A stretch of DNA of 64,000 nucleotides from Siphonodentalium dalli (Eukaryota > Mollusca > Scaphopoda > Gadilida > Siphonodentaliidae): positions 26,166,991 through 26,230,990 of the forward strand of contig CP136061.1 of the NCBI GenBank assembly GCA_032622095.1, written 5' to 3'. Below the pieces are notes generated by a model. That model was not told the DNA's origin, made no database searches, and was given only the letters and a program-made list of their open reading frames with translations. A program made the translations under genes and the position numbers. Below, one piece after another: positions 15,961-55,512 of this stretch (the first letter of the stretch is position 1; every line of letters begins with the position of its first letter).

Positions 15961-15976
15961 GGCCCTTTTCAGGGCC
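15961..15976 (+). terminator. Histone-type 3' stem-loop
   Basis: GGCCCTTTTCAGGGCC is a 6-bp stem with a TTTC loop and is preceded by AAAC. It fits the metazoan replication-dependent histone mRNA 3' end (GGYYYTTHTHARRRCC class). It serves the gene ending at 15941. Confidence 0.85.
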
Positions 15977-15990
15977 ACTTAAAATTCACG

Positions 15991-16004
15991 AAAGATACGC
16001 TCTG
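15991..16004 (+). promoter_or_regulatory. Histone-downstream-element-like motif
   Basis: AAAGATACGCTCTG begins 14 bases after the stem-loop. The identical 14-mer occurs at the same 14-base spacing after the minus-strand stem-loop at 16223-16238. In animal histone genes the U7 snRNP binds a purine-rich element at this distance. Confidence 0.6.
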
Positions 16005-16194
16005 TATTATGCTATATAATGAGCGTATTATAGATATGAATGGTGGTAGTGGGTTTTATTTTATTGTTAGGGAAGTATTCTTTGATAAATTATGTGAACA
16101 TTCTCTCCAAGTTCATGATGAATGAATTTGGTTTTGAAGAAATTATGTGAACATTATCTCCAGGAAGAATGAACAAATTGTTCAGTAGCAATTT

Positions 16195-16208
16195 CAGAGC
16201 GTATCTTT
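16195..16208 (-). promoter_or_regulatory. Histone-downstream-element-like motif
   Basis: On the minus strand this reads AAAGATACGCTCTG, 14 bases beyond the stem-loop at 16223-16238, and is identical to the one at 15991. Confidence 0.6.
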
Positions 16209-16222
16209 TTAAAAATTTGTGA

Positions 16223-16238
16223 GGCCCTGAAAAGGGCC
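16223..16238 (-). terminator. Histone-type 3' stem-loop
   Basis: The minus strand reads GGCCCTTTTCAGGGCC preceded by AAAAC, 13 bases after the stop of the OTU-like gene. It faces the stem-loop of the convergent gene at 15961. Confidence 0.85.
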
Positions 16239-16251
16239 GTTTTGGATGGTT

Positions 16252-16680
16252 TCAAAAGAAACCGCATAATGTGTTTGGGTTTGAATACAGCTGAAAGTTG
16301 TCTTGGGAACGTCGCAACCAAATGGCACAATTGCATGGCCGGCCTGTCTGTATCCCCCAGAGCGGTGCGAATTCGTACACCCGTTGCCCTGAGAAGATTA
16401 TGATAGACCGCTGTAGTGATGTAGCCGCAAGTCGTACCATCAATCTTGATGTCCCCAGCAATCTGGTATGTCGGAACCACCGTGGTGGCAGTCCAAACAC
16501 CCGATCTATGTTGTCCGTCATCAACATAACGGTGTACCTATAGATATCAAAACAGTTATCTATAGTCCCCGTTTCTGCTAAACCCAAAGCCTTCCATAGC
16601 ATCTGCGGTTCATCCCCAAACACACCTCGCACCAGCATCCCATCCTCCAAATAGCTCCGATATAGATCTCGGTAATCCAT
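16252..16680 (-). CDS. OTU-like protein, catalytic Cys absent (Polinton A, left)
   Basis: 142 residues. The order of motifs resembles an OTU cysteine-protease fold: QMLWKALGL near residue 26 (usual DGNCLFRAL), then SRLMVRLAATSLQRSIIIF near 78 (usual ELxALAxxLxRxIxV). The expected nucleophile Cys is replaced by Gln. Related proteins lie at 52438-52905 and 29505-29942. A deubiquitinase ancestor turned binding protein is inferred, not shown. Promoter box P2 lies just upstream and overlaps the apparent 5' end of polB. The 3' end is a histone-type stem-loop. Confidence 0.6.
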   Translation of the reverse strand: MDYRDLYRSYLEDGMLVRGVFGDEPQMLWKALGLAETGTIDNCFDIYRYTVMLMTDNIDRVFGLPPRWFRHTRLLGTSRLMVRLAATSLQRSIIIFSGQRVYEFAPLWGIQTGRPCNCAIWLRRSQDNFQLYSNPNTLCGFF

Positions 16681-16686
16681 TTCGGT

Positions 16687-19600
16687 ATGAATGAAGAATG
16701 GGAATATCTGTTTTTATTGAAAACGCGCGGGCGCCGCCGACGACGTCTTCGCATATTTCACCAAATTTTCCCGAACGTCAAAACAAGTGTGTTTCTTTTT
16801 GTTCACGACACCAGTTGCGGGGTTGAGGAATACAAAATTATTCAGGAACAACTATATCCTGAGTATGTTATAAAAATACATAGTCAATTTGCTGACGAAG
16901 GCTTTCTGTTTCAACCACCACCAGTTGGGAAAGAAAGTAAAGTTGTACATCTATATTTCAATGACAACCACTACGATGTGATCACAACTGTCACGGGATT
17001 CCTTGGATGTCATTATTACTGTGAACACTGTGATGTCGGTTCGAACAACAGAGGTGATCATATATGTCCATACAAGTGTAAGTGTTTCGATGGTCAGATA
17101 TGTCCCTTTGAACGATGGATACAATGCATCAAATGTAAGAGGACTTTTAGAAGTAAACGATGTCTCGACAATCATTTGAAAAAATCACTAAAACATGACA
17201 AAACTATTTGTGATATGATACACAAATGCCAGAAATGTGGGGTTGAAATCGTCACACGAAAGGAGAAAAGACATATATGTTCGGGAACAAAGAAGTGCAA
17301 ATACTGTAAGGAAATCGTCGCATCAGATCACAGATGTCATATCCAGCAGTACCAACAGAGAGAAACACAGAAAGCAGTAAAGGTACCATTCATATTTTTT
17401 TATTTTGAATGTCAACAAGATACTGGTGTTCATATACCCAATTTTTGTGTTGCACAAACTGCTTGTGAAAATTGTATATGTAAACCCATTGATGAAATAT
17501 GCATTTCATGTGATTCTGTATTGTCAAACAGAGAATATATTTTTAAAGGAGAGAATGTATTGGAAAGATTTTGCAAATGGTTGTTTTACACCAACGATCA
17601 TAAAGGTAAAACATGTATTGCTCACAATGCAAGAGGTTACGATAGTCAGTTCCTCTTACATTACTTGGTGAACAATGGAAATTCAAAACCTAATGTTATT
17701 ATGAATGGCAACAAAATACTTAGTTTACAATGCAATGGTGTTAAAGTAATCGATTCATTGAGTTTCATCCCTATGGCATTATCTAAATTTCCAAAAACAT
17801 TCCAACTTGAAGAAATGGCTAAAGGTTATTTTCCACATTGGGCAAATACACAGGACTTTCAGAATTATGTAGGACCATATCTAGACAAAAAATACTATAA
17901 ACCTGAAATCATGTCTGAGGAAAATAGAGATTCATTTCTGAAATGGTACGAAGCTAGGGGTGAAGATATTTTTGATTTTCAAAAAGAAATTCAAAAGTAT
18001 TGTAAATCAGATGTAGACATTTTAAGACGTGGATGTGGGAAATTCAGACTATGTGTAATGGAAACTGATCAAATAGATCCATTTCGGGAAGCAATAACAT
18101 TAGCTCAAACCTGTAACCTTGCCTGGAGAAAAAATTCATTACCAGAGAATTCTCTAGGTATAATTTCAGACGCTGGATATCCACAAGCGCGTAAATTTTC
18201 AATGAAAGCAATTCGATGGCTACAGTACATTGCTACAAAACAAAATATAAACATAAAGCATGCTTTAAATGGTGGTGAAGTTAAAATAGGCACACATTTT
18301 GTTGATGGTTATCATGCAGAATCATACACAGTGTATAAAATGTATGGGTGTTTTTTTCATGGCTGTCCTACTTGCTATCCAGATAGAAATCGCCGAAACC
18401 CATACAGTAATATAACAATGCATGAATTGTATGAAAAAACAATAAAAACGGAAATTGAAATCAAAAGCTCGGGATGCAAATTAATATGCATCTGGGAACA
18501 TGACCTGGACAATAAATGTAAAGCAGACAAATATTTAAAACAAACTATGGATCAATTATATTTGCATCAAGACCCAGTTAAACCAAGGGAAGCATTATTT
18601 GGTGGCAGGACTAATGCTCTAAAATTATATCATGAAATAGAACCAACATCTAAACAGGAAATAAAATATATTGATATATGCAGTTTGTATCCTAGTGTAA
18701 ATAAATATAAGGAGTACCCACTTGGTCATCCTGAAATTCTAAGTCAGGAACAAATAGGAGACATCAAATCCTACAAAGGACTCATTAAATGCAAAGTATT
18801 ACCTCCAAATAAATTGTACATTCCAGTGCTACCGATCCACTGTAATAACAAAATGATATATACATTGTGTAAAACTTGTGCAGAAAATGAAAGTGGACAG
18901 TGTAATCATAAAACCGAACAGCGTGTTTTAGTTGGAGTTTGGACACATGTAGAATTATTCAAAGCAATAGAATTGGGTTACCAAATTCTGGAAGTGTATC
19001 AAGTTTGGCATTGGACTGAGTGGTCGGACAAAGTATACAGGGATTACATTGATAAATACCTCAAAATTAAACAAGAAGCAAGTGGATATCCAAATTCTGT
19101 TAAAAGTGAAGAAGATAAAGATAAATACATTAAAGATTATTATGAGGTTGAAGGTATAAAACTTGAAAAAGAAAAAATCAAAAACAAACCAGGACTCCGC
19201 CAGTGCGCAAAATTAATGATAAATTGCATATGGGGGAAAAATGCACAAAATAATATTCTTACTAAAACTGAATATATCTCAGAACAAACCAGATATTTTG
19301 AACTATTAACTGATAAAAATATCACCGTCAAAGCAGTTGAAAATTTTGAACAGGATAAATTCATATTATTCAGCTATGAAAATAAAACCGATATTATAGA
19401 ACCACAACCATCTGCCAATGTAGTTGTTGCATCATTTGTCACAGCATATGCACGCTTGGAGTTGTATCAAGTTTTAGAAAAACTCCAAGATAGGGTGTTG
19501 TATTTCGACACTGATAGCTGCATGTATATTTTCGATCCAGAAAAAGAAAATATTAAAACCGAAGACAGCTACCTTGGTAAATGGACTGATGAGCATCCAG

Positions 19601-19923
19601 ATGCTAAAATCATGAAATTTGTAGGGTTAGGACCGAAAAATTATGGATATCAGTACATGAAAGATGATGTCATAAAATCTGTATGCAAGGTCAAGGGCAT
19701 CACTCTGGATTATAAAACTAAACAGCAAATAAATTTTCATTCAATGGTTGAATGTGTTAACGACCGGTTAAATTTTCAACGTGTCATAAACTATCCATGC
19801 AGAATTAAACGCACAAAGAACCGAGAAGTAATTAGTGAAGAGCAAACAAAATCTTTCCGATCTGTGTACACCAAACGACTTGTTGTGGGTGAATACAACA
19901 CAATTCCTTATGGATGGAATTGA
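16687..19923 (+). pseudogene. polB: Protein-primed DNA polymerase B, N-terminally truncated
   Basis: The ORF is 1,078 residues; the Polinton B homologue has 1,357. Homology begins at residue 40 (HDTSCGVEEYK, base 16804), matching residue 320 of B, so ~319 N-terminal codons are missing and a promoter for the neighbouring gene is joined in their place. Domains: Cys/His-rich zinc region (~80-220), 3'-5' exonuclease, an inserted HGCPxCY domain (~550-580, restriction-endonuclease-like in this family), and the palm. Exo I reads FFYFECQQD: the metal-binding Asp is Tyr239. Exo II AHNARGYDSQF, Exo III YCKSDVD, Pol A D663ICSLYP, Pol B KLMINCIWG and Pol C YFDTDS (939-944) are intact. It would replicate the element from protein-capped ends, but this copy is probably non-functional. 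Confidence 0.9.
16710..16803 (-). promoter_or_regulatory. Accessory-gene promoter box P2 (Polinton A)
   Basis: The minus strand carries AAAGAAACACAC, TTTGACGTTCGGGAAAATTT, GGTGAAATA, GACGTCGTC and CCGCGCG, then an AT-rich CAATAAAAAC. It is the same box series as at 15341 and 29389. On the plus strand it is open and is read as the first ~39 codons of the polB ORF, which have no homology to polymerase. Confidence 0.65.
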
Positions 19924-21191
19924 TGTGTTACCAGCAGAGATGCTTTTGAAAATTTATAATAATTTGATCGAAATGTCAAAAAATGGATCAAGAAATCAAA
20001 CAAGAACTTAAGCAAGCTTGGTTTTTGAGGGAAAGTAGAATTATAATGGAGACTTTGCTGAACGGACATTTCTCTGAGGGACAGAGTCGACTGAGATGTT
20101 TGATTGAGAGATCAGAATTTGAAACTGATTTCTTAATGGATATATTGGATCAAATGTTTTCAGAATATTGGATATTTCATGGTGTTCCTAAAACCGAAAT
20201 AAACGCAATTCGTGAATTAGTTGGAAATAATTTTACTCGCTTTGCTGAATATCAAGACAGGATTATCAATGAAAAAACTTTGAAATTCGAAGAGGTGACG
20301 AGAATATATGGATACATTATTCTCCGAGAACCATGTACAATGTTCACTGTTGAAAAGTTATTTGAAGAAAAAGTGTCTTTGGATTATATTGTAAAAAACA
20401 CTAGACCTATTTCAGATTTAGATTATGAACTCGTATGGACATTTGGAATAGTATGGAGTTATGGTGATTCTTCATTAAAATTAAAAAGATTGATTCCGAA
20501 CAATCCTAATCAGTCTTACATGATCTGTCTCAGGGTAAAGATGGACGAATCATTGTTGTTCAAACATCCCTGTAACATTTTCATATCGGGACTAAGTGGT
20601 TGTGGTAAAACAGATTTTGTTAAGAAATTAATCGAATATAAAGATGACTTGTTCAAACCTGTTCCATACAAAGTCGTTTGGTGTTACAAAGAATGGCAAA
20701 ATACCTATAGTCAGATGCAAGAATTTCACAATATTCAATTTATAAATGGAATACCGGATGATGACAATGAACTTGTCGATGACACAGACTTACCGCACCT
20801 CATCGTTTTTGATGACATGCTAGGTGATAAAGATGAAGAAAAAATTATGTTGTGGTTTACAAGAAAAGGACATCACAGAAATACGTCTGTTATTTACATA
20901 ACCCAAAACATGTTTCAGAAATCTAAAGCGAGTAGAACTTTGAGTTTGAATACACATAACATGGTATTATTTCAAAGTGTGCGTGATAAAGGCCAAATAC
21001 AAATTCTTGCCTCTCAAATGCAAATACCTCATTTAATGCAGGCATATGATGATGCAACTTCAACCAATCGTGGTTATTTACTACTCGATTTTCACCCTAA
21101 AACGGATAAATCGTTGAGACTTAGAACTGATATTTTCCATCGGTGGCTCACAAATGACGATCGAGGTGCGGTAATATATTCATCGGTATAA
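19910..21191 (+). CDS. F-box-like domain plus A32-type packaging ATPase (frameshift near 19980)
   Basis: The open frame from 19983 gives 402 residues. Residues 187-402 are the FtsK/A32-type genome-packaging ATPase: Walker A GLSGCGKT (203-210), Walker B LIVFDD (273-278), then FTRKGHHRN and the sensor-like YITQNMF. An upstream segment (19910-19982) in another frame starts ATG, overlaps the end of polB by 14 bases and encodes LPAEMLLKIYNNL, an F-box-like helix, so an A-run frameshift near 19976-19983 probably split the original start. In Polinton B the two halves are separate ORFs (60500-61096 and 61130-61780); here the intervening stop is gone. The ATPase drives DNA into the capsid. Confidence 0.85.
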
Positions 21192-21227
21192 AGATATGTG
21201 TATCAACATAATATTTCATTTCCAATC

Positions 21228-23163
21228 ATGGAGTCGCATGAAGCAGTCTTGAGTGTATTTTCGACTATCGCTAAATTAATACTTGATGATCACTTAAATT
21301 AAATCACTGCATGAAAAGCGAGATTTATAAAATATAAATGTCGCATAAATTTAGGACCCTAAATTTATGCATGCATTTATGCATATTAAATTCGTCTTTA
21401 TACAAAAATATAAATGTCGCATTTATATTTTTAAATATCGCATAAATGTCGCATTATTTTCGCTCATTACTGTAACCAACAGTGGTTTTAAGTCTTGGCC
21501 CATAATTTAATTACTACCATGTGGATATGTGAGACATATCGTATAACAGAAGCTAACTGCCGATACCGATTTCTTTGTCTGCCAACACAACTGCTGCGAA
21601 GACGTGCGTGAATTAGGTGGGTACTCTTAATTATAAGGCGAGTTTATATACAAATACGTTTGTTTTCTGGTTTCGCATTTTCTGTCTAAACTAGAAGGCA
21701 TATTTGCAATGGTAGATTAACGCTGTGGACTGTAATGTAGCCATGCACACAGTAGGGACCAAGGTGGTAGGATGGGGTGTTCGTGTGTGGGTGGGTGGGA
21801 GGGGTATTGGTGGTGGTATATTTGCTTGGGTTAGAACATGATCGCCACATCATTTCATTTTTAAATTCCCTTTCAATTCGCAGCGTGATCGACACATGTC
21901 AAAATTAATATTTGATTATACAGAGACGTCGGAATAAGGTTATTCTATCTCGTGAAAATGTGGTTTTGTGAGAGTGATTCCACCCTTAGCCAGATCACAA
22001 ATAAAAAATGCCGTACATTACAATTCTTATTTTAGTTTTAATATGTTATCGTTTATACTTATTTCCCATGCGATCATTTAATTATTTAATTTTTATTCTT
22101 TATTGCAGAGACTACGAAAATTGATGACGGCAAGTGCCATGTCGAAGTAGTTCATATTATATTTGTGACTGGTATAACCAACAATAGGGCAGCATTTTGT
22201 TGGCAAATTACTACATGCACATGGAGATACCAGAATCAGGGCGACACATGTGTATATGTATAGTTAGATATACACATCCGTGTCGCCTTATATGCTGGTT
22301 ACAAGCCAAATGTCACCATAAAGTAGATTTCACAAATATATATGGATATATATGTTCAAATCCAAATAATTTATACGGGGTATAAATGTGCATAAACTGG
22401 AGTTTATAACCAGAATAAATGTAGCTATATGTATATTTATGCAGCTTTATTCAGTGAATAAATTTGCATTTATGCATAAACAGGTCGATAATAAATGTGC
22501 ATAAACGTACGAATAAATGCCGAGTTTATTCTGTTGAATAAACGTGGGTTTATTCAGTGAATAAATTGTGTATAAATGTCGGCCTTTATTCATGAATAAA
22601 TTGTGAATAAATGTGCATAAATTTCCGGATTTATGCACATTTATTCAGTGAATAAATTTTTGATTTATCCAGATTTATGCACATTTATCCGGAATTTATG
22701 CAATGAATAAATTCCAGTTTTCATGCAGTGAAAGCTTCCAAAGCAGACACGAACATTCCTACAAAAACACAAAAAAGAGCTGAAGAAAATAGCTGACAGT
22801 AGAACTCATATCGATTCAAAAAAGAAAATACTTTCAAAAACTGGTGGAGGTGGTTTTCTCGGTGGAGTTTTGATCAGAAGTCTTCTCAGACAAAAATAAA
22901 ATAAATCAATTGCACGAGTTAGATCAAATAGAGTAAATGCTACTCGAGTAAATTCTACGATTGCACAGCGAGCTAGTCCAGTCAGAGTAAATTCTACAAG
23001 TGCACAGCGAACTACTCCAGCTAGAGTAAATTCTACTGGATTAAATTCTACATTTGCTAGAATTCAACCACTCAACGATAATGGTCTGCAACCAATTCCA
23101 TCAATTCAAGAAGCAGAACATTACCCGTTGGTTCAACGATACTCAAAAATGATGAATCTTTGA
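21228..23163 (+). pseudogene. Small virion-type protein gene split by insertion
   Basis: The first ~24 codons (from ATG 21228, MESHEAVLSVFS) and the rest (from 22732, KLPKQTRTFLQKHKK) match consecutive parts of the intact Polinton B gene at 61815-62402. A 1.43-kb element lies between them. A second break is an in-frame TAA at 22897, after the conserved GGGFLGGVLIRSLL segment; the frame continues to TGA at 23161 with a basic, Asn/Thr/Arg-rich tail (repeats of RVNST). The hydrophobic Gly-rich segment suggests a virion membrane-active or core protein (inference). Function unknown. Confidence 0.75.
21304..22731. mobile_element. Non-autonomous insertion inside Polinton A
   Basis: Inverted ends TCACTGCATGAAAA (21304-21317) and TTTTCATGCAGTGA (22718-22731) bound 1.43 kb. 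The inner flanks are filled with diverged ATAAATGTGCATAAA-type repeats in both orientations. No transposase is seen. Comparison with Polinton B shows the host gene resumes directly after 22731. A clear target duplication was not found; short A-rich flanks make it ambiguous. Confidence 0.7.
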
Positions 23164-23243
23164 TGGCATTTGATCGTAATTTTAATAAACGTAAAAGTAA
23201 AAAGTAATTCAGTCATTTGACATTCAACTATTGAAGAGTAAAT

Positions 23244-23585
23244 ATGGCGAAAAAAACTCCACTGATTAAAAAATATGGTAGTTTTGTAATGGCTATGAAT
23301 CAGGCACCAACTCATTTTCGGAAAAAAATGATAAAAGATGCCCCAAAGAGAGTGATTGATTGCATGTCAGAATGCTGTAAAAATATTTTAAAAGGCAATG
23401 TAAAACTAACAGAAGCTCAGAAGCGCAAACTTCGTCCGAGGTGTAGACATCTCAGAGAACTTGCAAGTAAATCAACATCTTTGAAACGAAAAAAACAAAT
23501 TTTAAACCAGAAAGGAGGTTTTTTACCACTTCTTATGCTAGCACCGTTGCTTGGTAAAGCACTCGCTGGAATAATTCGCGGTTAA
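23244..23585 (+). CDS. Small conserved Polinton protein with hydrophobic C-terminus
   Basis: 113 residues. The N-terminus is basic (MAKKTPLIKKYG); the middle contains DAPKRVIDCMSECCKNILKG; the C-terminus is LNQKGGFLPLLMLAPLLGKA. The homologue at 62459-62821 in Polinton B is about half identical. The KGGFLPLL ending resembles the GGFLGG segment of the preceding gene and recalls proteolytically processed small virion core proteins of adenovirus-like viruses (inference). It lies between the split gene and the 246-residue gene, on the same strand, 2 bases before the latter. Confidence 0.75.
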   Translation: MAKKTPLIKKYGSFVMAMNQAPTHFRKKMIKDAPKRVIDCMSECCKNILKGNVKLTEAQKRKLRPRCRHLRELASKSTSLKRKKQILNQKGGFLPLLMLAPLLGKALAGIIRG

Positions 23586-23587
23586 AC

Positions 23588-24328
23588 TTGAAGAAAATGG
23601 TCGCTGTTCCCTTCAAAATGTTGGATGACATTAAAAAATGGAGAATGAGTCTAACTAATCCGAAATTACCACCTAATCCTGAAATTACGAATAAATCAAA
23701 ACTAAGCAGAGAATTGAATTCAGTTTCTGATCAAAATTTGTCAGAATATGAGAAGGTTCAATTATATGGTACAACTTTACACAAAGTGAAAACTTCTCAA
23801 AAATCAGTTAGAGCTATTTCAGCCCCGAAAACAGAACCACCATTTAATCATCATCATAGGGATGTGATAGAAAGTATTCCGTTAAAGATGAGAAAAAAAG
23901 CTGAACAACTTTTACAACTGATTTCAAAACATCCACAAATGAAGATTGATGAACATGGACAATTAAAATATGGTGACAAAGTTATTAGAGGATCAAATAT
24001 TGTTGATCTCCTCAATGATATTGTACGACAAAGAAAAGGTTCCGAACCAACAGGTTGGCAAACCTTTTCACAAGGATTGAGCGAGCTTAATGTACCTCAA
24101 GATTTTGTAGGGAATAGAAACCGCTGGCTATGGATTAAAAAACATTTGAAAGATGATTCAGATGATGATTTTGAAACTCCGGTACAACGCATAACACCAA
24201 AACGATTTGATTCTCAACGATTCACACCAATGAAAGGTATAAAAGCAATACATTCAAAAACTAAAATAGCAGATAGGTTGACACCAAAGGGTATTAAAAC
24301 AGAAAAAACACAATGGGATCCATACTAG
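23588..24328 (+). CDS. Conserved Polinton protein of unknown function
   Basis: 246 residues, homologous throughout to 62842-63549 in Polinton B. Conserved blocks are MLDDIKKW near the start, LYGTTLHKVKTSQKS, IPLKMRKKAEQLL, GSNIVDLLNDIVRQRKG, and LNVPQDFVGNRNRWLWIKKH. No transmembrane segment is visible. It ends TAG immediately before the integrase ATG (TAGATG), a typical tight Polinton junction. Its neighbours are capsid-assembly and integration genes. No function is claimed. Confidence 0.75.
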   Translation: MKKMVAVPFKMLDDIKKWRMSLTNPKLPPNPEITNKSKLSRELNSVSDQNLSEYEKVQLYGTTLHKVKTSQKSVRAISAPKTEPPFNHHHRDVIESIPLKMRKKAEQLLQLISKHPQMKIDEHGQLKYGDKVIRGSNIVDLLNDIVRQRKGSEPTGWQTFSQGLSELNVPQDFVGNRNRWLWIKKHLKDDSDDDFETPVQRITPKRFDSQRFTPMKGIKAIHSKTKIADRLTPKGIKTEKTQWDPY

Positions 24329-25384
24329 ATGAGCAGTTATCTAAACAAATTATATAATCCGAAGAAAGTTGGAAGTTATGGCGGTGTAATGAAGCTTTTT
24401 GATGAAGCGAAAAAGCAAAATAAAAAAATTAAACTCATAGATGTGAAGAAATGGTTGCAAGGTCAGTCGACATATACTTTACACAAACCAATAATTCGAA
24501 AATTCCAACGTAGAAAGACTATTGTGGCTGGGATTGATATTCAATGGCAGGCAGATTTAGCTGATCTTCAGAATTTGAAAAAACATAATGATAATTACAG
24601 ATATCTGTGTGTGTGATAGACGTTTTTTCAAAATTTGCGTGGGTAGTGCCAATCCACGATAAATCTGGACAAACTTTGATCGAATCATTCAGGAAAATTT
24701 TGAAATCTTCAAAACGTAAACCAAAATCGTTTCAAGCTGATAAAGGTTCTGAATTCAAAAATGAAAAGTTTTTGAAATTTCTGCGATCAGAAAACATTCA
24801 TTTCTTCACAACTGAGAATCCAGAGACTAAAGCAAGTATTTTCGAACGATTTCAAAGAACTTTAAAAACTCGTATGTGGAAGTATTTCACACACAATAAA
24901 ACTTCAAGATATATTGATGTTTTACAGCCCCTAGTCGATTCTTACAACAATAGTTATCACCGCAGCATAAAATCGAAACCGTCGGCAGTTACTTTGAAAA
25001 CTGAAGCTGAAATTTCCAAAAATCTATATGGAACAGGGAATAAAAAAGGAAAATCTACACTGAAAGTGGCTGACTTGGTTCGTATCAACAAAACCAAAAG
25101 AACATTTGAAAAGGGTTATTTACCAAACTGGACTCGTGAAATTTTCAAAGTTGATAAATCCAGTAACATACAAAGTTTCTGATCTTGATGGTGAAGAGAT
25201 TGCTGGATCATTCTACAAACATGAAATCCAGCATATAAAAGACAGTAAGGTGTATGAAATAGAATCAGTTATTGATAAAAGAACGAGAAGAGTGGGTGGT
25301 AAAACAGTAAAAGAAATTAAAGTTCATTGGCTTGGATATCCAAAAAAGTTTGACAGTTGGATCCCAGCTTCAAATTTAGTATAA
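24329..25384 (+). pseudogene. Retroviral-type integrase with chromodomain, two frameshifts
   Basis: Three frames cover one integrase. The core has the DDE triad: D in GIDIQWQADLAD, D in FQADKGSEF and E in FERFQRTLK. The C-terminus (VYEIESVIDKR ... VHWLGYPKKFDSWIP) is a chromodomain with aromatic-cage residues. Compared with Polinton B, one base is missing in a (GT)n run near 24607-24616, and a further base or two near 25160. Integrase inserts the element and makes the 6-bp duplication. The chromodomain would read histone-tail methylation to guide insertion (known for chromoviruses, inferred here). This copy is inactive. Confidence 0.9.
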
Positions 25385-25397
25385 AACAGAATTTACC

Positions 25398-26501
25398 ATG
25401 TTGGAAAATCATTCAGATTCAATTAATCTCGATGAACCGTCACAATTTAAGTTCTGTGGTGAAAAAGTTGCTAAGAACCAAGTCACCTACTTCACGCAGA
25501 TAATTATTATTTATATCATAATAATTACATCTATTGTACACATTAGTATCCAGAGCGCAAACAAAGAATTGTGGCTTATTCTTCTAAGTAGTTCTCTAGG
25601 TTATATTCTACCAACACCTGGACTGAAATTATTGAAAAATACTGAGCAAAAAATGAATTCATTCTACATAACTCTCATGAGTGATAGTTCAATGTCACTT
25701 TACCCAGCCAACTCACAATGTTGTTTCACAGTGAAATTACCAAAAACCATACATATTGATAAAGAGCTTTGGGAAGTTGCAATGGATGAACTAATTGTAC
25801 CATCAGAAACATACAACATTATTGGAGATGCCTGCAAAATAAAAATAAAAACTTCTGTTCCAAGAATTTTACAATATTTGAATAAGATACCAATGAGTGA
25901 TGTAGTAATTTCAAAACCAGAAAATGGTATAGAATTAAAAATACCAGAAGGAGCATATTCTGGTGGAGCACTTTTGACAGATACAATTCAAGGTGTAATT
26001 GATAGTACAGTAAGCAGAATGATTCCAGAACTGGAATTCGAAATCGGATATTCCAAAGCACAACAACGAGTTAAAATTTCAACCAATAGTTATACCAAAG
26101 TAGGTCTTGTACTCCCCAAAGCTCTTTTGGATAAACTTGGTTACATAACAGAATCGAACACTGTCACATTTGCTACTCCTTCGATAACATTTCAATATGG
26201 AGTTGATTTATGTGCGGAGCATAATCAATTGTTTGTTTATTCTGACATTGCTGATTATACAATTCTTAGTGATGTTGAAGCACCGATATTACGAGTGACA
26301 TCATTCGAGAGTAAAAGAATACATGATGGTAAACATATTAGGCATGAATTCAAAAACTTACATTATGTACCAATATCAACGTCTAGCTTTGATACCATAA
26401 ATGTATATATAACTGGTGATACTGGCAAACCAATTCAGTTTATTGGTGGAAAGTCTATGGTAAAGTTGCAATTCCGACGCCGAAGTAATTTGTATTTATG
26501 A
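25398..26501 (+). CDS. Small membrane protein fused in frame to penton-type minor capsid protein
   Basis: 367 residues in one frame. Residues 1-85 look like a separate protein: a hydrophilic head, then two hydrophobic segments (TQIIIIYIIIITSIVHI and LWLILLSSSLGYILP). M86 (base 25653) starts MNSFYITLMSDSSMS, the usual start of Polinton minor capsid (penton, single jelly-roll) proteins; VKLPKTIHIDKELWEVAMDE and the ending KLQFRRRSNLYL support this. The penton occupies icosahedral vertices. The fusion most likely results from loss of a stop codon between two tight genes. Both parts may be made from internal initiation. Confidence 0.75.
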   Translation: MLENHSDSINLDEPSQFKFCGEKVAKNQVTYFTQIIIIYIIIITSIVHISIQSANKELWLILLSSSLGYILPTPGLKLLKNTEQKMNSFYITLMSDSSMSLYPANSQCCFTVKLPKTIHIDKELWEVAMDELIVPSETYNIIGDACKIKIKTSVPRILQYLNKIPMSDVVISKPENGIELKIPEGAYSGGALLTDTIQGVIDSTVSRMIPELEFEIGYSKAQQRVKISTNSYTKVGLVLPKALLDKLGYITESNTVTFATPSITFQYGVDLCAEHNQLFVYSDIADYTILSDVEAPILRVTSFESKRIHDGKHIRHEFKNLHYVPISTSSFDTINVYITGDTGKPIQFIGGKSMVKLQFRRRSNLYL

Positions 26502-26878
26502 TGATTCCCGTGTATAGAGGCGTATCTAGACAGTATGGAAATGGAATTGGTTCACTATTCAAATCTGCAATGAGAACAGTAATACCGTTTCTAAAACCTA
26601 TTGGTCAGATTGCTAAACAACAAGTATTCAAGCATGGACTTGCTGCAGTCGAAGATATCATTCATCGTGGTAAAAGTCCAAAAGACGTATTTTTGAAACA
26701 AGGTAAAGAAGCATTGAAATCTTTTGGAAGGGAAACAATAAAGAAAATATCAACACCAAATGGCATCATTAGATCATCGCGACCTTTGAAAAATCATTCT
26801 TCTCGTAAACGAGTTAGAAGTAAGTCCATTAAAACGCCTGTAAAGAAATCAAAACGATCTCTCGATATATTTGATTAA
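26498..26878 (+). CDS. Basic virion-core-like protein
   Basis: 126 residues. It starts MMIPVYRGVSRQYGNGIGSL, followed by an amphipathic helix-rich stretch (FKSAMRTVIPFLKPIGQIA), and ends in a Lys/Arg-rich tail (SRKRVRSKSIKTPVKKSKR). Position between penton and major capsid genes and composition match the small DNA-binding or membrane-active virion proteins of Polintons and adintoviruses, comparable to adenovirus core proteins. It overlaps the penton gene by 4 bases. Confidence 0.7.
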   Translation: MMIPVYRGVSRQYGNGIGSLFKSAMRTVIPFLKPIGQIAKQQVFKHGLAAVEDIIHRGKSPKDVFLKQGKEALKSFGRETIKKISTPNGIIRSSRPLKNHSSRKRVRSKSIKTPVKKSKRSLDIFD

Positions 26879-26880
26879 TC

Positions 26881-28148
26881 ATGATGATGCAAAATGGATC
26901 ATGCGAATGCAGCAAGTCCGAGTTAGATGCTTCTGATGTTCCACCAACAATGACAACGATGTTGGAATCACAATGGATAGAACATCACCCGATTAGCTCT
27001 TTGAATAATTCCGCACCGATAGAATTTGTAATTCCGCCTCAAACTGAAAAATGGATAGATGTAAATCAATCATATTTGTACCTGAAATTCAAAATCACAA
27101 AAGCAGATGGAACAAACTTGGTTGATGGTACTGATGAAATTGCGCCTATTAACAACTTTTTCCATAGCATGTTCAATAGTATCGATATTTACCTAAATAA
27201 CAAACTTGTAACGGCAAACGGAGATACCTATCCTTATCGAGCCTACATGGAAAATCTCTTGGCTTATTCTGGTGAATGTAAAGAAAATCAACTTGCCGCA
27301 CTAGAAATGTGGTACCCCGACACCGCTAAGCAGTTCACCGAAAACACTAAAGCTGGTGGTAATGATGGATTGAAATCTCGCCAGGCAATCATAGCAGGTA
27401 GTAAAACGGTAGAATTGTGTGGTCGTTTACACACAGATATATTTCTACAAGAGAAATACTTACCAAATGGAATTGAGATAAGAATTCGTCTCAATAGAGC
27501 GAATCCAAAATTCTCTTTAATTGGTCAGGCCAACGGAAAAATAGTATTTGAAACGGCAGTTTTCAATGTTCGTACAATTACGCTGATGTCAGTAGTAGCA
27601 AATAACTTGAACCAAACAATAATACAGAAAAATATGAAAATACCGATTAGAAGAGTTGAAGTAAAAACATTCACTATTGGTGCAGGGCTTAGATCAAAAA
27701 TTGAAGATCACCTTTTTCAAGGACAATTGCCAAAGAGACTTTTCATAGGCTTGGTATCAAACAAAGATATGAATGGCGATATTGAAACGAACCCATTTCA
27801 TTTCCAACACTTCAATCTGAGAAAACTTGAAGTTAGTCAGGACGGACATACCATCCATAACCGACCATTTGAACCAAACTTTGAATCAGAACAATGCCTA
27901 AGATCTTATTTATCACTGTATCAGTCTTCGGGTATGTTTGGACAAAACAAATCCTTTGGTTTGAATCTCGAAAAATACATGACCAAGGAGCAGAGGAAGG
28001 ACATTTGCATCCTATAAAAACCGGTAACATACGGTTAGAGCTTCAGTTTGCTGCAGCTCTAGCTTCAGTGATCAACGTGATAGTCTATGCTGAGTTCGAT
28101 AATCAAGTTGAAATCAACAGTTTGCGAGAAATAATAACAGATTATTAA
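26881..28148 (+). pseudogene. Double-jelly-roll major capsid protein, C-terminal frameshift
   Basis: The open frame ends at 28017 (378 residues). The true last ~50 residues (PIKTGNIRLELQFAAALASV ... VIVYAEFDNQVEI) continue in another frame to 28148, so a small indel lies near 27980-28000. The N-terminal block (QWIEHHPISSLN, QTEKWIDVNQSYLYLKF, NNFFHSMFNSIDIYLNN) is the conserved first jelly roll of Polinton/adintovirus capsids. The protein forms the trimeric hexon-like capsomer. The frameshift would remove the last beta strands. Confidence 0.9.
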
Positions 28149-28152
28149 AAAC

Positions 28153-28608
28153 ATGGATGGATTGCACTTGGAGGAAAAATTGAGACTGGAAGTTGGAGGA
28201 CTCGATTTCATTCCATATGTTTCTATCCTTGACAAAGTTCGGAAAACTTTCGAGAAATGTTTCGTTCATGAAATACAAAATCAAATTTCAAAAGAAGTGA
28301 CACTCAATTGTGAAGGATGTAAAATAGATCATCCAAGCCAGAAACGACATTTACTTTGTCTTTGGACACCACCTATACAATGGGTAGATATGTTCATTGA
28401 TATAGCACTACTTAAATTGAACATCTACCGAGTTATGGAACAATGGTATCCAGAAATAGAATCATTTACACCACAAGAGAAATTTGAGGCATTCAAACTT
28501 TGGAAAGATATAAAGGAAGTTGTTCATGCAAACTGTATCCAATTTAATTCGGTTTTTGTTGACTTGTGGTGTGAAAAAGTAAAAAAAAACTACGAAGATG
28601 AACACTAG
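28153..28608 (+). CDS. Unknown Polinton protein with a Cys/His cluster
   Basis: 151 residues, predicted soluble and helical. A NCEGCKIDHPSQKRHLLCL segment (residues ~56-74) contains CxxC, HP and HxxC spacing that could bind one zinc ion. It lies directly after the major capsid gene, and its last 11 bases overlap the protease start. No homologue is visible in the window because Polinton B is cut off earlier. Function unknown. Confidence 0.65.
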   Translation: MDGLHLEEKLRLEVGGLDFIPYVSILDKVRKTFEKCFVHEIQNQISKEVTLNCEGCKIDHPSQKRHLLCLWTPPIQWVDMFIDIALLKLNIYRVMEQWYPEIESFTPQEKFEAFKLWKDIKEVVHANCIQFNSVFVDLWCEKVKKNYEDEH

Positions 28609-29128: not shown

Positions 29129-29388
29129 TAAAATGTGTTCATTACCAATTGTTTAAACATGTTAAAATCATAATCATTTTGTAAATATGTTGATTGTTAA
29201 TGATGAAATTAGTTACCAAATGTAAATTATGTTCATTGCATTACCAATTATTGATTGTAAATATGATAATTTCATGATCAGTTGTAATATTTTATTCTTA
29301 ATTCAAAAATAAAAGTTATGTTATTGAAAAACAGTGTCTGTTTTTAATGATCGTCTTCGGCAATGTCGATGAAGATCTTAATTCACCA
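29129..29388 (+). terminator. AT-rich 3' region with polyadenylation signal for the capsid block
   Basis: AATAAA lies at 29308-29313. No gene or histone-type stem-loop occurs here. Tandem-like ATTACCAATT/TGTAAATATG words occur at 29140-29270. Confidence 0.5.
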
Positions 29389-29469
29389 AAAAGAAACACA
29401 TTTGAAATGACGTTCGGGAAATTTGGTAGAAAAAACGTCGCCAATGACGTCCGCGCGTTTTACATATAA
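29389..29469 (+). promoter_or_regulatory. Accessory-gene promoter box P3 (Polinton A)
   Basis: AAAGAAACACATTTG, ATGACGTTCGGGAAATTTGG, AACGTCG, TGACGTCCGCGCG then TACATATAAC (TATA-like). It has the same order as P1 and P2. It ends about 35 bases before the ATG at 29505. Confidence 0.65.
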
Positions 29470-51124: not shown

Positions 51125-51574
51125 GTGACCCGCCATATCAAATCCAGTCGTAAGTCGGTATTTTTTACCCTGTGCCAATGCATTCTCTTATATATGCGAG
51201 TCGACCATAGGTCGCCTCGCATATATAAGAGAATGCATTGGCCTAACAATTTTTTATCATTTTTTTTAAATAAATGTTTCTGACAATTTTTAGGACATAA
51301 AATAAAAAAAACATCCATTACCCTGCAGTGAGCCCCACACATATATAGAAGCATATAGAAGAGTGTCGTCTGCTCATGTTTGTCTGGGTCTCTGTATGGG
51401 TGAAATTAAAAAAAATTTAAAGAAAAAATATTAAAATTGTAAAAAATTGTTAGGCCAATGCATTCTCTTATATATGCGAGGCGACCTATGGTCGACTCGC
51501 ATATATAAGAGAATGCATTGGCGCAGGGTAAAAAAAATCCCGACTTCCGACTGGATTTGATATGGCGGGTCACA
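51125..51574. mobile_element. Nested-palindrome MITE, copy 2
   Basis: The outer inverted ends are GTGACCCGCCATATCAAATC and GATTTGATATGGCGGGTCAC. Just inside each end sits the ~67-base palindrome also found at 13.1-13.4 kb. The total TIR is about 115 bases. The first copy lacks the outer GACCCGCC ends. Confidence 0.8.
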
Positions 51575-51855
51575 TATATGCAAAGAATAGGTACAGACTG
51601 AGAATCGTTGCTGAAATAATTGTGTATCACGAAGATGCTTGTTGTGTTGCCTCATTAATGGTCATTGGAACAAAATATTAGGTAATTCGTACGTGAATAT
51701 ATGATATCGTTGCCATGGACACAGGTTTTTTTCTGACACATGACCTATAGCCGGGACTCATCAATAGTTCGAATCTACACATGAGCAAAGTCATTGATTG
51801 GTGTTTCGTCTATGCAAATTTTATGTTTGAAATAAAAAATAAATATGCACACAAT

Positions 51856-52262
51856 AGTAGTAATGGGGGGCACTATGGCCCAGTACCCCCCAGTGGGGGG
51901 CACTATGGCCCAGTACCCCCCAGTGGGGGGCACTATGGCCCAGTACCCCCCAGTGGGGGGCACTATGGCCCAGTACCCCCCAGTGGGGGGCACTATGGCC
52001 CAGTATCGAATACTGGACCATAGATCGTCCAGTATTCGATACTGGGCCATAGTGCCCCCCAGTGGGGGGCACTATGGCCCAGTATCGAATACTGGACGAT
52101 CTACGGTCCAGTATTCGATACTGGGCCATAGTGCCCCCCACTGGGGGGTACTGGGCCATAGTGCCCCCCACTGGGGGGTACTGGGCCATAGTGCCCCCAC
52201 TGGGGGGTACTGGGCCATAGTGCCCCCACTGATGGGTACTGGGCCATAGTTCCCCCCTGAGG
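51856..52262 (+). repeat. Polinton B left terminal repeat with nested palindromes
   Basis: Four full 30-bp units (from 51865) contain GGGGGGCACTATGGCCCAGT and ACCCCCCAGT. Then come two palindromes around CCAGTATTCGATACTGG, and the 30-bp unit in reverse orientation. The shared core CTATGGCCCAG is similar in style to CTCTGGCCCATGG of Polinton A. The ORFs here are repeat translations. Confidence 0.8.
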
Positions 52263-52402
52263 ATAGATATTCCTGTCATTGATGTGATATTTCTGATCGG
52301 AAAAAATGAAAATGGACTTAGAATTATTTTTTTTCAAAAGGAAAATCTCACTTTGGAAAATATCAATTAGCAATCAAGAGTTTTTCTTTTCGAATATTTG
52401 GT

Positions 52403-52418
52403 GGCCCTGAAAAGGGCC
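52403..52418 (-). terminator. Histone-type 3' stem-loop
   Basis: The minus strand reads GGCCCTTTTCAGGGCC then ACCAAATATTCG and AAAAGAAAAACTCTTG (HDE-like, 12 bases after the stem). It lies 19 bases after the stop of the OTU-like gene. Confidence 0.87.
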
Positions 52419-52437
52419 GTTTTATTTTTGTTATAGT

Positions 52438-52905
52438 TTAGAATCCGCCACATTGAACTTCTTTGTTCGCCAAAACTTCAATTGATTTGTCTCCTCGCCT
52501 CATCCATATTTCGCATTCACAATAATGCTCGTGGCAAACGTGTGGGATCCACACTAGAGTTATTGATGACTTGAATCTTGGTGTTGATTTGTAGCCGCCT
52601 TTGGTAGCATCAAACATGACGATAGGTCGCTGTATAACAGTCGCCGCTAATTCAACCATCAATCTTGATTCAGCCAAAAGTGGTGTGCGCCGTAAATCTT
52701 GTGCCGACGCACCAAGTTCGTCACTCTCTGCGTAGTACAGGTCAACTGCCGCATCTCTCAGAACCATCCATCCATCGGTCGTCCCGTAAACCGCAACGCT
52801 GAGTGCCCTCCAAAACAGAGATATTTCTTCGCCGCCGCACACTGCTTTACAGTATACCCCCTGTACCATTATCTCGTCAAGATCTGTTATGTTTACAGCA
52901 GTCAT
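52438..52905 (-). CDS. OTU-like protein, Ser in place of catalytic Cys (Polinton B)
   Basis: 155 residues, and the best preserved of the three OTU-like proteins. EEISLFWRALSVAVYGTTDG matches the DGNCLFRALS..YG helix of OTU proteases, with Ser where Cys is expected. MVELAATVIQRPIVMFD matches the ELxALAxxLxRPIxV strand. CHEHYCECEIWMRR provides the C-terminal His-Tyr. OTU enzymes cleave ubiquitin; here hydrolysis is doubtful and ubiquitin binding or decoy function is inferred. It is transcribed divergently from 53529-54017 across a symmetric promoter and ends with a histone-type stem-loop. Confidence 0.62.
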   Translation of the reverse strand: MTAVNITDLDEIMVQGVYCKAVCGGEEISLFWRALSVAVYGTTDGWMVLRDAAVDLYYAESDELGASAQDLRRTPLLAESRLMVELAATVIQRPIVMFDATKGGYKSTPRFKSSITLVWIPHVCHEHYCECEIWMRRGDKSIEVLANKEVQCGGF

Positions 52906-52939
52906 CTTTGAATGTAGAATAAGTCAGAAGATCCGTCTT

Positions 52940-53505
52940 GAACATATATTACGATTGTGCGGGCGGTAGAGAAAGCACATAATACTTTGACGTTAAAAAT
53001 GACAAATGCTTCCTGACGTTGTGTTTCTTTACAGTGCATTATCTGTAGTTTTCACTATTTCGATATGTTATAGATTAAATTCATGATAGTATATGCAATT
53101 AATTAAGATGTTTTAACATATGAATTCATCTTCGTTCATAAACGATGACCAAGTAAAGTTATCGATTGTAATGATGAAGAAAAATGTTCAGTATGTTTTC
53201 TTGTGTTCAGTTTTATGTATAAAATATGTACATCTCCAAAAACAAAACTAGAAAAACATTCCATATTTTCCTAACGAGGTAACAAATATATCAATCATGT
53301 GTACCAAATAATAGATAATGATCTAACGAAATAAAAAACATTTGTTTGATCGCTATGCAATAATGATCAAGAAAAATATGAATGCTGATCCGTCTCTGAA
53401 AAAACACAATGCCAGGAAACATTTGTCAATTTTAACGTCAATGCGACATGTGATTTCATTGACGCCCGTGTCAAATGTATAAAAATATTTTCGAATTTGA
53501 TCAAC
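52940..53505. promoter_or_regulatory. Divergent promoter cassette, copy 1 (Polinton B)
   Basis: It is nearly identical to 54548-55105. The outer ends are inverted copies: GCGGGCGGTAGAG, TTTGACGTTAAAA, GACGTTGTGTTTC on the left versus AACACAATGCCAGG, TTTTAACGTCAA, GCGCCCGTG-like GACGCCCGTG on the right. TATAAAAATATTTT at 53479 serves the plus gene; AATATATGTTC-like sequence serves the minus gene. Confidence 0.75.
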
Positions 53506-53528
53506 GTTACATTGCATTGCTATCAAAG

Positions 53529-54017
53529 ATGGATCCGTTAACAGAATTTCTTCAGAGTGAGATATACAGTAATCCTGTTGTACAGAATACATATGCGGCA
53601 CCACAGTCAACAGGCCAAGCTAATACGACAATGACTATAGGTGGAGATACACTCATTTTAAAAGCGATTTTAGATGAACTGAGATGTCTTCGCAGGGATA
53701 TTGACGTGAAAACACAAGTAACGCATCAAGAAGTAAAAGTGAATCTTCGTTTCGTTGCAGAAGAGATAGATATACCAATCAGGGTTCATGATGTTCAGAA
53801 ATCGAAAGAACAGAAACAGATCAAAAAAGAAAAAATATTGGCTGCGAAAGAAAAAGAACCTAAAAGTATCATGAAGCCTTCTACTGAGACAAAAGTCAGA
53901 TTTCGTCTTCCTTGTAAAGAATCTAAAGATACAGAGAAAAGTGATGAATTCGCAAAAGCTATTGGTTCTCATGGGAAAGATATGTCAAGATATAAGAAAA
54001 ACACAAAACGATGTTAA
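53529..54017 (+). CDS. Small unknown Polinton protein, histone-type 3' end (Polinton B)
   Basis: 162 residues from MDPLTEFLQ. An upstream in-frame ATG at 53475 lies inside the TATA box and was rejected. Homologous to 15492-15941 of Polinton A: MDP[LV]TEFL, EIDIPIRVH, GS.GKD. The central ILKAILDELRCLRRDIDVK looks coiled-coil; the C-terminal third is strongly basic (Lys-rich). A DNA-, RNA- or capsid-binding role is possible but unproven. The stem-loop follows 22 bases after the stop. Confidence 0.75.
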   Translation: MDPLTEFLQSEIYSNPVVQNTYAAPQSTGQANTTMTIGGDTLILKAILDELRCLRRDIDVKTQVTHQEVKVNLRFVAEEIDIPIRVHDVQKSKEQKQIKKEKILAAKEKEPKSIMKPSTETKVRFRLPCKESKDTEKSDEFAKAIGSHGKDMSRYKKNTKRC

Positions 54018-54039
54018 AGTCAGATGATAATTTTAAAAC

Positions 54040-54055
54040 GGCCCTTTTCAGGGCC
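54040..54055 (+). terminator. Histone-type 3' stem-loop
   Basis: GGCCCTTTTCAGGGCC preceded by AAAAC and followed by ACAC. AAAAGGTTACTCTTTC begins ~14 bases on and is shared with the copy after 55512. Confidence 0.87.
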
Positions 54056-54266
54056 ACACACATTTCCCAAAAGGTTACTCTTTCATTGCTGAAAAAATCA
54101 AAAACACGATTGTTCAATTTATATTTTATTCAACAACAAATATTTGCAAGTATATTTTGTTTTAAATTATTCGTGGCGTGATTTTTTCAAAACAAAACAT
54201 AGGGTACAAAGAACATTATTAGTTATTAAGCAATGCTAAAAGTTTTTCTTTTTGAAAAAATTGGTT

Positions 54267-54282
54267 GGTCCTGAAAAGGACC
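54267..54282 (-). terminator. Second histone-type stem-loop, compensated variant
   Basis: The minus strand reads GGTCCTTTTCAGGACC. Relative to the others the C-G pair is changed to T-A on both sides, so the stem is kept. HDE-like AAAAAGAAAAACT follows 13 bases on. Confidence 0.8.
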
Positions 54283-54294
54283 GTTTTTGTTTTT

Positions 54295-54310
54295 GGCCCT
54301 GAAAAGGGCC
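54295..54310 (-). terminator. Histone-type 3' stem-loop (proximal of a pair)
   Basis: The minus strand reads GGCCCTTTTCAGGGCC, 13 bases after the stop at 54324. The distal variant is 12 bases further. Only the distal one has an HDE-like motif, so it may be the functional signal. Confidence 0.83.
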
Positions 54311-54323
54311 GTTTTGTATGGCA

Positions 54324-54512
54324 TCAAAGTTCACGCCACGATTTTCTTTTGAGACTTTTGCTTTTGTTCCAACGCTGTTGTTTTTTGCATATTTGCATAA
54401 CCAGTTTTGCACTGGCGGTTACTTCTTTTGCGTGTTCGCCCCGCATTATCTGGGGTGTTAGCCCTATCGTTCCTCTTAGTATAGACATCAACGGTTCGGG
54501 GGTTTCGGACAT
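54324..54512 (-). CDS. Small basic protein, histone-type 3' end
   Basis: 62 residues from MSETPEPLMS; the ATG sits in the same place relative to the duplicated promoter as that of the OTU-like gene (CATCTTTGAATG). The segment MRGEHAKEVTASAKLV slightly resembles the histone H2B C-terminal helix (GExAK...K.V), and the tail is Lys/Arg-rich. No histone fold core is present. The call rests on promoter position and two stem-loops rather than homology. Function unknown. Confidence 0.5.
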   Translation of the reverse strand: MSETPEPLMSILRGTIGLTPQIMRGEHAKEVTASAKLVMQICKKQQRWNKSKSLKRKSWREL

Positions 54513-54547
54513 CTTTGAATGCAGAATAAAAATTGTTCACGGCCGTG

Positions 54548-55105
54548 TTTGAACATATATTACGATTGCGCGGGCGGTAGAGAAAGCACATAATACTTTG
54601 ACGTTAAAATGACAAATGCTCCCTGACGTTGTGTTTCTTTTCAGTGCATTATCTGTTAGTTTCACCATTTCGATATGATATAGATTAAATTCATGATAGT
54701 ATATGCAATTAATTAAGATATTTTAACATATGAATTCATCTTCGTTCATAAACGATGACCAAGTAAAGTTATCGATTGTAATGATGAAGAAAAATGTTCA
54801 GTATGTTTTCTTGTGTTCAGTTTTATGTATAAAATATGTACATCTCCAAAAACAAAACTAGAAAAACATTCCATATTTTCCTAACGAGGTAACAAATATA
54901 TCAATCATGTGTACCAAATAATAGATAATGATCTAACGAAATAAAAAACATTTGTTTGATCGCTATGCAATAATGATCAAGAAAAATATGAATGCTGATC
55001 CGTCTCTGAAAAAACACAACGCCAGGAAACATTTGTCAATTTTAACGTCAAAGTATTATGTGATTTCTCTACCGCCCGTGTCAAATGTATAAAAATATTT
55101 TCACT
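54548..55105. promoter_or_regulatory. Divergent promoter cassette, copy 2 (Polinton B)
   Basis: Direct repeat of 52940-53505 over ~550 bases with few differences. Its two ends are better inverted copies of each other: GGCGGTAGAGAAAGCACATA left and TATTATGTGATTTCTCTACC right. TATAAAAATATTTTC at 55089 is ~40 bases before the plus-gene ATG. Confidence 0.78.
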
Positions 55106-55127
55106 TTTTCAGTGAACTTCATTCATT

Positions 55128-55478
55128 ATGCCGTCTCTAAAGAAATTTTTCAAGAAGCTATGGAGGAAGAGAGATTCGTCAGAGGAGACGAAAATCAGAA
55201 CCTATAGGAAATGGCAGGATTCTCCTGAACAAAAGGTGGTGCAGAAACAGATGTTAACAGATTTTCTGGCTCGGCGACGACCATCGGCTGAAGTATGTGA
55301 TCAAGAACCAAGCAATCTTGATCTCGTGGAGATCTTGTCACAGATCTCGAAGAAAGATCTGTGCAATGCAGCAATTGACAGCTTCGCTCAGGCTGCTGCG
55401 GCGCACAGATCAAACCCTACTTGGTCTGTGACAATTAATCCCAACGGGATATATCCTGATTTGGCAGAATTTTTATGA
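55128..55478 (+). CDS. Small unknown protein, histone-type 3' end
   Basis: 116 residues. The N-terminus is very basic (MPSLKKFFKKLWRKR), likely a nuclear-localisation or membrane-binding helix. The C-terminal half is acidic to neutral, with DLVEILSQISKKDLCNAAID and a helical FAQAAAAHRS stretch, ending NPNGIYPDLAEFL. No homologue is seen in Polinton A. It is expressed from the duplicated divergent promoter, and a stem-loop follows 18 bases after the stop. Function unknown. Confidence 0.65.
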   Translation: MPSLKKFFKKLWRKRDSSEETKIRTYRKWQDSPEQKVVQKQMLTDFLARRRPSAEVCDQEPSNLDLVEILSQISKKDLCNAAIDSFAQAAAAHRSNPTWSVTINPNGIYPDLAEFL

Positions 55479-55496
55479 ATTCTGGAAAAGAAAAAC

Positions 55497-55512
55497 GGCC
55501 CTTTTCAGGGCC
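55497..55512 (+). terminator. Histone-type 3' stem-loop
   Basis: AAAAACGGCCC...GGGCCACCCACA: full canonical context. CCCCAAAAAGGTTACTCTTT begins about 10 bases after the stem and is conserved with the copy after 54055. Confidence 0.88.

Follow-up and report, generated by a model that had tools for sequence, protein, structure and literature searches.

Replication-dependent histone mRNAs are described, in the passages of PMC5011920 that deal with them, as products of intronless core genes that end in a 16-base stem-loop with a purine-rich downstream element and lack a poly(A) signal. In the bivalve Lucina, the part of PMC6210712 on histone mRNAs reports that they carry the palindrome, with purine-rich elements in only some of them. 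Outside histone genes, the portion of PMC7786107 concerned places a match to the Rfam family Histone3 (RF00032) inside a coronavirus gene, at 14.7 bits far under the cutoff of 34, and PMC12220804 (2025) lists six Histone3 matches in polinton-like virus (PLV) and virophage genomes; section 16 of that paper neither names the carrying genes nor discusses the six matches. Here, a 64,000-nucleotide (nt) stretch of the scaphopod mollusc Siphonodentalium dalli (contig CP136061.1, positions 26,166,991 to 26,230,990, forward strand), referred to in full length as the window, was analyzed. It holds one complete Polinton and the beginning of a second, and in these two mobile elements eight histone-type stem-loops follow the stops of small accessory genes. 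On the evidence below, the stem-loops are likely to be functional histone-type mRNA 3' ends that are read by the host pathway. Few if any genes other than those for replication-dependent histones are known to use 3' processing of the histone type. The preliminary description of this DNA knew of no account of such ends in Polintons. The listed titles and abstract openings of the open-licence literature searched contained nothing on Polintons, but given the six matches in PMC12220804 the bare motif is not unreported.

Histone-type stem-loops in the window

All eight stem-loops of the preliminary description were recovered by pattern search with their positions and strands. In the first Polinton (element 1), they follow gene A1 (15492-15941, +; 149 residues) at 15961-15976 (+), gene B1 (16252-16680, -; 142 residues) at 16223-16238 (-) and gene C1 (29505-29942, +; 145 residues) at 29956-29971 (+), with stop-to-stem distances of 19, 13 and 13 nt. 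In the second (element 2), gene B2 (52438-52905, -; 155 residues) has its stem-loop at 52403-52418 (-), 19 nt past the stop; gene A2 (53529-54017, +; 162 residues) at 54040-54055 (+), 22 nt; and gene D2 (55128-55478, +; 116 residues) at 55497-55512 (+), 18 nt. The small open reading frame (ORF) s2 (54324-54512, -; 62 residues), whose start is in register with the duplicated 5' region of B2 and which is the least certain of the seven hairpin genes, is followed by a tandem pair, s2a (54295-54310, -) at 13 nt and s2b (54267-54282, -) at 41 nt. The frame of A2 has its first ATG at 53475, but a later start was picked because it agrees with A1 and with the TATA-like TATAAAAA at 53478. Thus, the claimed spacing of 13-22 bases applies to seven of the eight copies and not to the second tandem hairpin.

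Seven copies read GGCCCTTTTCAGGGCC, and s2b reads the base-compensated GGTCCTTTTCAGGACC, in which a C-G pair is replaced by T-A. A degenerate pattern allowing at most one mismatch matched the window eight times, always with no mismatch, while shuffled windows gave a mean of 0.35 matches and a maximum of 3. The Rfam search proposed in the preliminary description was run on the whole window against 4227 families. The RF00032 gathering score of 34 bits was reached by five stem-loops, those of D2 (42.6 bits), B2 (41.8), A2 (40.1), s2b (37.1) and C1 (34.6). Those of A1 (33.8 bits, E 5.8e-6) and B1 (30.9 bits, E 6.7e-5) fall slightly short of it, both with E below 1e-4, and the weakest copy, s2a (22.2 bits, E 0.12), directly abuts the second hairpin of its pair. 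No Histone3 match with E ≤1 was found in the window beyond the eight. Matches to microRNA families in the window were under their gathering scores, lay on palindromic stretches and were set aside.

The hairpin was aligned in seven window copies, s2a being excluded, together with one from another Polinton, L010, described below. The stem has 6 base pairs and the loop 4 nt, and all 48 pair cells are standard; covariation consists of the single compensated pair, which was equalled in 47 of 500 shuffles. AAAC precedes the stem in all eight sequences. AC directly follows it in five of the seven aligned window copies (not B1 or s2b; s2a also lacks it) and in six of eight with L010 included. The full AAAAC...ACCCA context holds in the best copies only, as had been described.

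Each of the eight stem-loops is on the coding strand, shortly after a stop, and the ORF that precedes it has 62-180 residues (counted from the first ATG of the frame). Of all element positions, 4.6% (+) and 2.8% (-) are found 5-45 nt past an ORF stop when ORFs of 60 or more residues are counted. Within 400 nt 3' of 17 other ORF ends, which include those of PolB, ATPase, integrase, major capsid protein (MCP) and the protease-like fragment, there is no stem-loop, so that the earlier assignment to small accessory genes is upheld.

The two elements are also well diverged, as the preliminary description had claimed. Aligned parts of their PolB proteins share 60-62% identity and the DNA 64.5%, and at four-fold degenerate sites in shared residues only 61 of 182 agree (33.5%), which indicates that neutral positions between the elements are saturated. 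However, the hairpins of the homologous genes A1/A2 and B1/B2 are identical in 16 of 16 bases per pair, while the proteins are only 31% and 36% identical, respectively. The chance of a 16/16 identity at the neutral 33.5% is about 2.5e-8 per pair. Identical hairpins could alternatively be produced by gene conversion or module transfer, but their flanks are diverged between the elements.

Downstream boxes, promoters and proteins of the hairpin genes

Past the expected cleavage region, an A-rich run and then an ACTCTT-like stretch are present in six of the seven window hairpin genes, for example AAAAGATACGCTCTGAAATTGCT in B1, AAAAGAAAAACTCTTGATTGCT in B2 and AAAAGGTTACTCTTTCATTGCT in A2. With limits drawn by eye, these boxes, which resemble the histone downstream element (HDE), lie at 15989-16013 (+) for A1, 16187-16210 (-) for B1, 29987-30005 (+) for C1, the weakest, 52369-52390 (-) for B2, 54069-54090 (+) for A2, 54229-54253 (-) for s2 and 55526-55548 (+) for D2. 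When the boxes were registered to the hairpin, with s2a excluded, 188 of 384 positions were identical between the elements. Slid controls on the two sides averaged 138 and 139 and peaked at 166 and 177, with 0 of 255 reaching the observed value on either side. The A1, B1 and C1 boxes, tested singly, each scored above all slid versions. The box probably corresponds to the downstream element of histone genes.

The hairpin genes of each element also share promoters. A module at about 15341-15430 (+) ahead of A1 is common to B1 (~16800-16716, -) and C1 (~29388-29455), and a module at about 52956-53029 (-) ahead of B2 is common to A2 (~53404-53494), s2 (~54637-54563, -) and D2 (~55005-55099). Both modules hold AAAGAAACACA (a near copy in A2 and D2) and ACGTC cores. 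No pair of promoters was similar across the elements at E ≤0.01; in alignments tested against 400 shuffles, the resemblance of B1 to B2, s2 and D2 was equalled in 9, 14 and 18 of them. In the 250 nt ahead of the gene, a TGACGT or ACGTCA core is present for all seven hairpin genes and for none of 16 other window genes; 103 of 1275 background windows contain it. The seven promoters are not independent because they were duplicated within the elements. The set of 16 excludes PolB of element 1, which starts six bases from the B1 start, and the protease, whose start is uncertain; an ACGTCA at 28733 seems, by eye, to lie inside the protease coding stretch. In element 2, PolB and a CCHC-like gene are divergent and start from a distinct palindromic region.

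No histone family was found in Pfam (E ≤10) for the seven hairpin-gene proteins of the window, nor among the best 25 of 36 Pfam families for the zinc-finger protein of L010. B2 and B1 (36% identity to B2 in alignment) make up a small family together with C1 (26%), a possible distant relative. No relatives of the B/C proteins with E ≤0.001 were found among 1356 candidates, and their alignment gave no match with E ≤1 to PDB sequences. The predicted structure of B2 is a poor model (mean predicted local distance difference test score 44.7) and had no match in BFVD with E ≤0.001. An OTU-like domain without the catalytic cysteine had been considered for B1, C1 and B2 by eye and was rejected, being unsupported by Pfam, the PDB search or the model. 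A2 has an LxCxE-type match at residue 127 (LPCKE), after which come serines and acidic residues. LxCxE motifs bind pRb in tumour viruses. A match is present in one of eight hairpin-gene proteins, L010 included, with A1 lacking it, and the match in A2 may be due to chance.

Carrier elements and their relatives

Element 1 (14734-30546) is complete at 15.8 kb, with termini AGTAGT...ACTACT, inverted terminal repeats and, by eye, a 6-bp target-site duplication CATGCG at 14728-14733 and 30547-30552. Element 2 (51850-64000) has an approximate left boundary set by eye, palindromic repeats at its left, PolB at 56410-60483, ATPase at 61130-61780 and the start of an integrase at ~63555, and continues past the window end. 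PolB and an A32-type packaging ATPase were recognized by Pfam in both elements. In element 1, an rve integrase with chromodomain was recognized piecewise, having been searched in pieces because its gene is frameshifted; the putative MCP has no Pfam match and aligns in tblastn with ORFs of three other loci (L007, L010 and L013), and a protease-like piece was assigned by eye only. The integrase and MCP both look frameshifted (24329-25384 and 26881-28148), and on its own this copy is therefore probably inactive. Among the best 120 of 416 PolB relatives, the first with an organism name comes from the clam Mercenaria, with 57% identity over 81% of the query region. Judged by gene content, the carriers are Polintons, adintovirus-like.

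The palindromic region between PolB and the CCHC-like gene of element 2 (56096-56513) has 189-nt arms (56096-56284 and 56325-56513) that are 98% complementary. PolB and the CCHC-like gene (55624-56199, -) both start in it, share their 5' region there and lack a stem-loop. Since the arms reach into both coding starts, the two proteins have their first 32 residues in common. Long palindromic repeats with GCCAATGCATTCTCTTATATATGCGAG were also observed at 13118-13374 and 51161-51535, in each case beyond the left end of a Polinton and no more than ~1.4 kb from it; they are possibly a MITE-like (miniature inverted-repeat transposable) element.

Related elements were sought with alignments of the element proteins. 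The PolB alignment found nine contigs in GTDB (L005-L013) with a Polinton-type PolB in records titled as bacterial metagenome-assembled genomes, which are probably eukaryotic contamination of that genome set. Five of the nine records are Limnohabitans genomes. Limnohabitans is a genus associated with water fleas, and for this reason the five loci may be arthropod elements. In IMG/VR, the PolB alignment found one weak relative, L004 (28% over 105 residues), a further PolB scan found none, and scans with the ATPase, integrase and MCP alignments found no relatives. Five IMG/VR contigs picked up with three hairpin patterns were rejected as tailed phages, by eye from their ORFs; two of them, L014 and L015, had no Histone3 match with E ≤1. 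The comparison set thus consisted of the nine GTDB contigs and L004, ten loci with 84 kb in all.

The stem-loop that the preliminary description had asked for in related elements was found in one of these ten. In L010, Histone3 matches at 8335-8380 with 35.8 bits (E 1.4e-6), 28 nt past the stop of an 89-residue C2H2 zinc-finger ORF, and is followed by CCAAAAAAGAGATTTTC; its flanks are AAAC and ACCCC, with a purine run AAAAAAGAGA. A permissive Histone3 scan of eight loci, L010 included, gave a match in L010 alone (L004 and L011 were searched in gathering mode only). The same locus encodes an integrase with chromodomain, an MCP and a TBP homologue (7192-7695, -; PF00352, E 1.2e-27) that is divergent from the zinc-finger gene. 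Six overlapping half-sites of the promoter core, three of them TGACGTCA, lie ahead of the hairpin gene. L010 is an independent Polinton in which the hairpin recurs. The pertinent part of a preprint (PMC11071296) reports that some adintoviruses have small zinc-finger genes.

Proposed processing, alternatives and known systems

If the stem-loops are read as host-processed 3' ends, the RNA polymerase II transcript of each small gene would be bound in the host nucleus at its hairpin by host SLBP, the U7 small nuclear ribonucleoprotein (snRNP) would pair with the downstream box, and the RNA would be cleaved a few bases 3' of the stem. The product would be a short, non-polyadenylated message, stable and translated mainly during host DNA replication. 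These steps, the processing by SLBP and U7 and the non-polyadenylated S-phase RNA, are inferred from established histone biology, and the S-phase timing of the messages is held with moderate confidence. The hairpin genes with their common promoters would form a regulon separate from the PolB, packaging and capsid genes. It is probably early or regulatory: the promoter cores hint at an early role, and so do the location of its genes towards the element ends and the LxCxE match of A2. More tentatively, and with somewhat less than even confidence, Polintons of some animals may carry a histone-mimic regulon of small regulatory genes with a common CRE-like (cAMP response element) promoter, histone 3' ends that the host can read, an activation tied to S phase and messages that vanish after replication, in which A2 could engage pRb through its LxCxE match and push S phase, closing the loop.

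Several results weigh against host processing. The hairpin copies within an element are partly duplicates, and not independent: A2 and D2, and B2 and s2, sit in duplicated modules, and a 76% inverted repeat is common to A1 and B1. The C1 box has the second part only, AGATGACTCTTACAT. In an unregistered pairwise test of the boxes, the score was reached in under 50 of 1000 shuffles for 4 of 15 pairs, for 2 of 5 far-downstream controls and for 0 of 5 upstream controls; a shared-word test was modest, with 42, 16 and 14 of 500 shuffles reaching the score at 10, 12 and 14 bases. Only some cross-element promoter pairs are clear, the other nine pairs of hairpin-gene promoters being equalled in at least 53 of 400 shuffles. 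In L010, the TGACGT core also lies upstream of two of six other genes, one of which is the TBP-like gene in the hairpin gene's own intergenic region. The poly(A)-signal motif AWTAAA occurs within 400 nt downstream of three of the seven hairpin genes versus 12 of 17 others, without a clean separation of the classes, and was rejected as a class marker because it does not discriminate. Finally, nine of the ten other loci have no Histone3 match at the cutoff. Absence is weak evidence for seven of the ten, whose length is under 9 kb when element 1 has 15.8 kb, but L007 and L013 (12.7 and 13.4 kb) have PolB, ATPase, integrase and MCP and yet no hairpin, and the histone-type end is therefore not a universal trait of Polintons. 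The phrase "a whole class of Polinton genes" in the preliminary description was thus too wide; the confinement to accessory genes and the recurrence in L010 support its interpretation in part.

The possibility was considered that the hairpins are decoys, sponges for host SLBP and U7 that upset the histone supply, while the element mRNAs receive their poly(A) at sites beyond them. Such a role would suit the presence of several hairpins in each element and of the tandem pair after s2, as would the AWTAAA motifs near B1 (+187), s2 (+194) and B2 (+12, ahead of its hairpin). It is nevertheless improbable: AWTAAA is absent from the 400 nt after A1, C1, A2 and D2, every hairpin lies just past a stop, and the downstream box is kept in register with it, as is expected of a processing site. 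It is also very unlikely that the hairpins are element-specific signals for viral or other hairpin-cutting machinery that merely resemble the histone signal. Giant viruses do have hairpin-defined transcript ends, according to the portion of PMC4402537 on this subject, but the loop, flanks and downstream box in the window match the animal histone signal, and no RNase or poly(A) polymerase was found in Pfam scans of the ORFs tested, a subset in which element 2 is incomplete.

Alternatively, host histone 3' ends might have been captured by recombination and persist as relics without function. Hairpins can indeed hitch-hike with duplicated modules, but those of the two elements are intact although neutral sites are saturated, which makes this explanation highly improbable. 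A role at the DNA level, as a site of replication, recombination or packaging, can be imagined from the nearly strand-symmetric palindromic stem and from the richness of these elements in palindromes. However, all eight copies are oriented with the gene and past its stop, and the asymmetric loop and 5' flank are kept on the coding strand; a DNA-level role is extremely unlikely.

If reading by the host pathway is correct, it would show how, with no need of polyadenylation, a virus-like element could sense the cell cycle, and it would provide an outside set of natural SLBP and U7 substrates. The timing of Polinton activity would become a testable question. RNA ends are predicted a few bases past each hairpin, and the 5' end of the host U7 is predicted to be complementary to approximately AAAAGRNNACTCTT(NN)ATTGCT.

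Compared with known systems, the hairpin genes resemble histone mRNAs of the RF00032 type in the stem, the loop, the AAAC 5' flank, the mostly AC 3' flank and the position just after the stop, as well as in a probable A- or purine-rich downstream box and in being single-ORF genes. They are unlike histone genes in that the seven proteins lack a Pfam histone family, the hosts are mobile virus-like elements and the 3' processing is predicted. As in Mimiviridae, hairpins mark the gene ends; there, however, the virus supplies both the enzyme for cutting the hairpin and the polymerase for poly(A) addition, as set out in that part of PMC4402537, whereas the hairpins of the window match the host histone signal. 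The carriers share with Polintons/Mavericks and adintoviruses the PolB, the A32-type ATPase, the rve integrase with chromodomain, a putative MCP and a protease-like piece, and element 1 has in addition the inverted terminal repeats and 6-bp target duplication of Polintons. What sets them apart from the described Polintons and adintoviruses is the histone-type 3' ends on their accessory genes.

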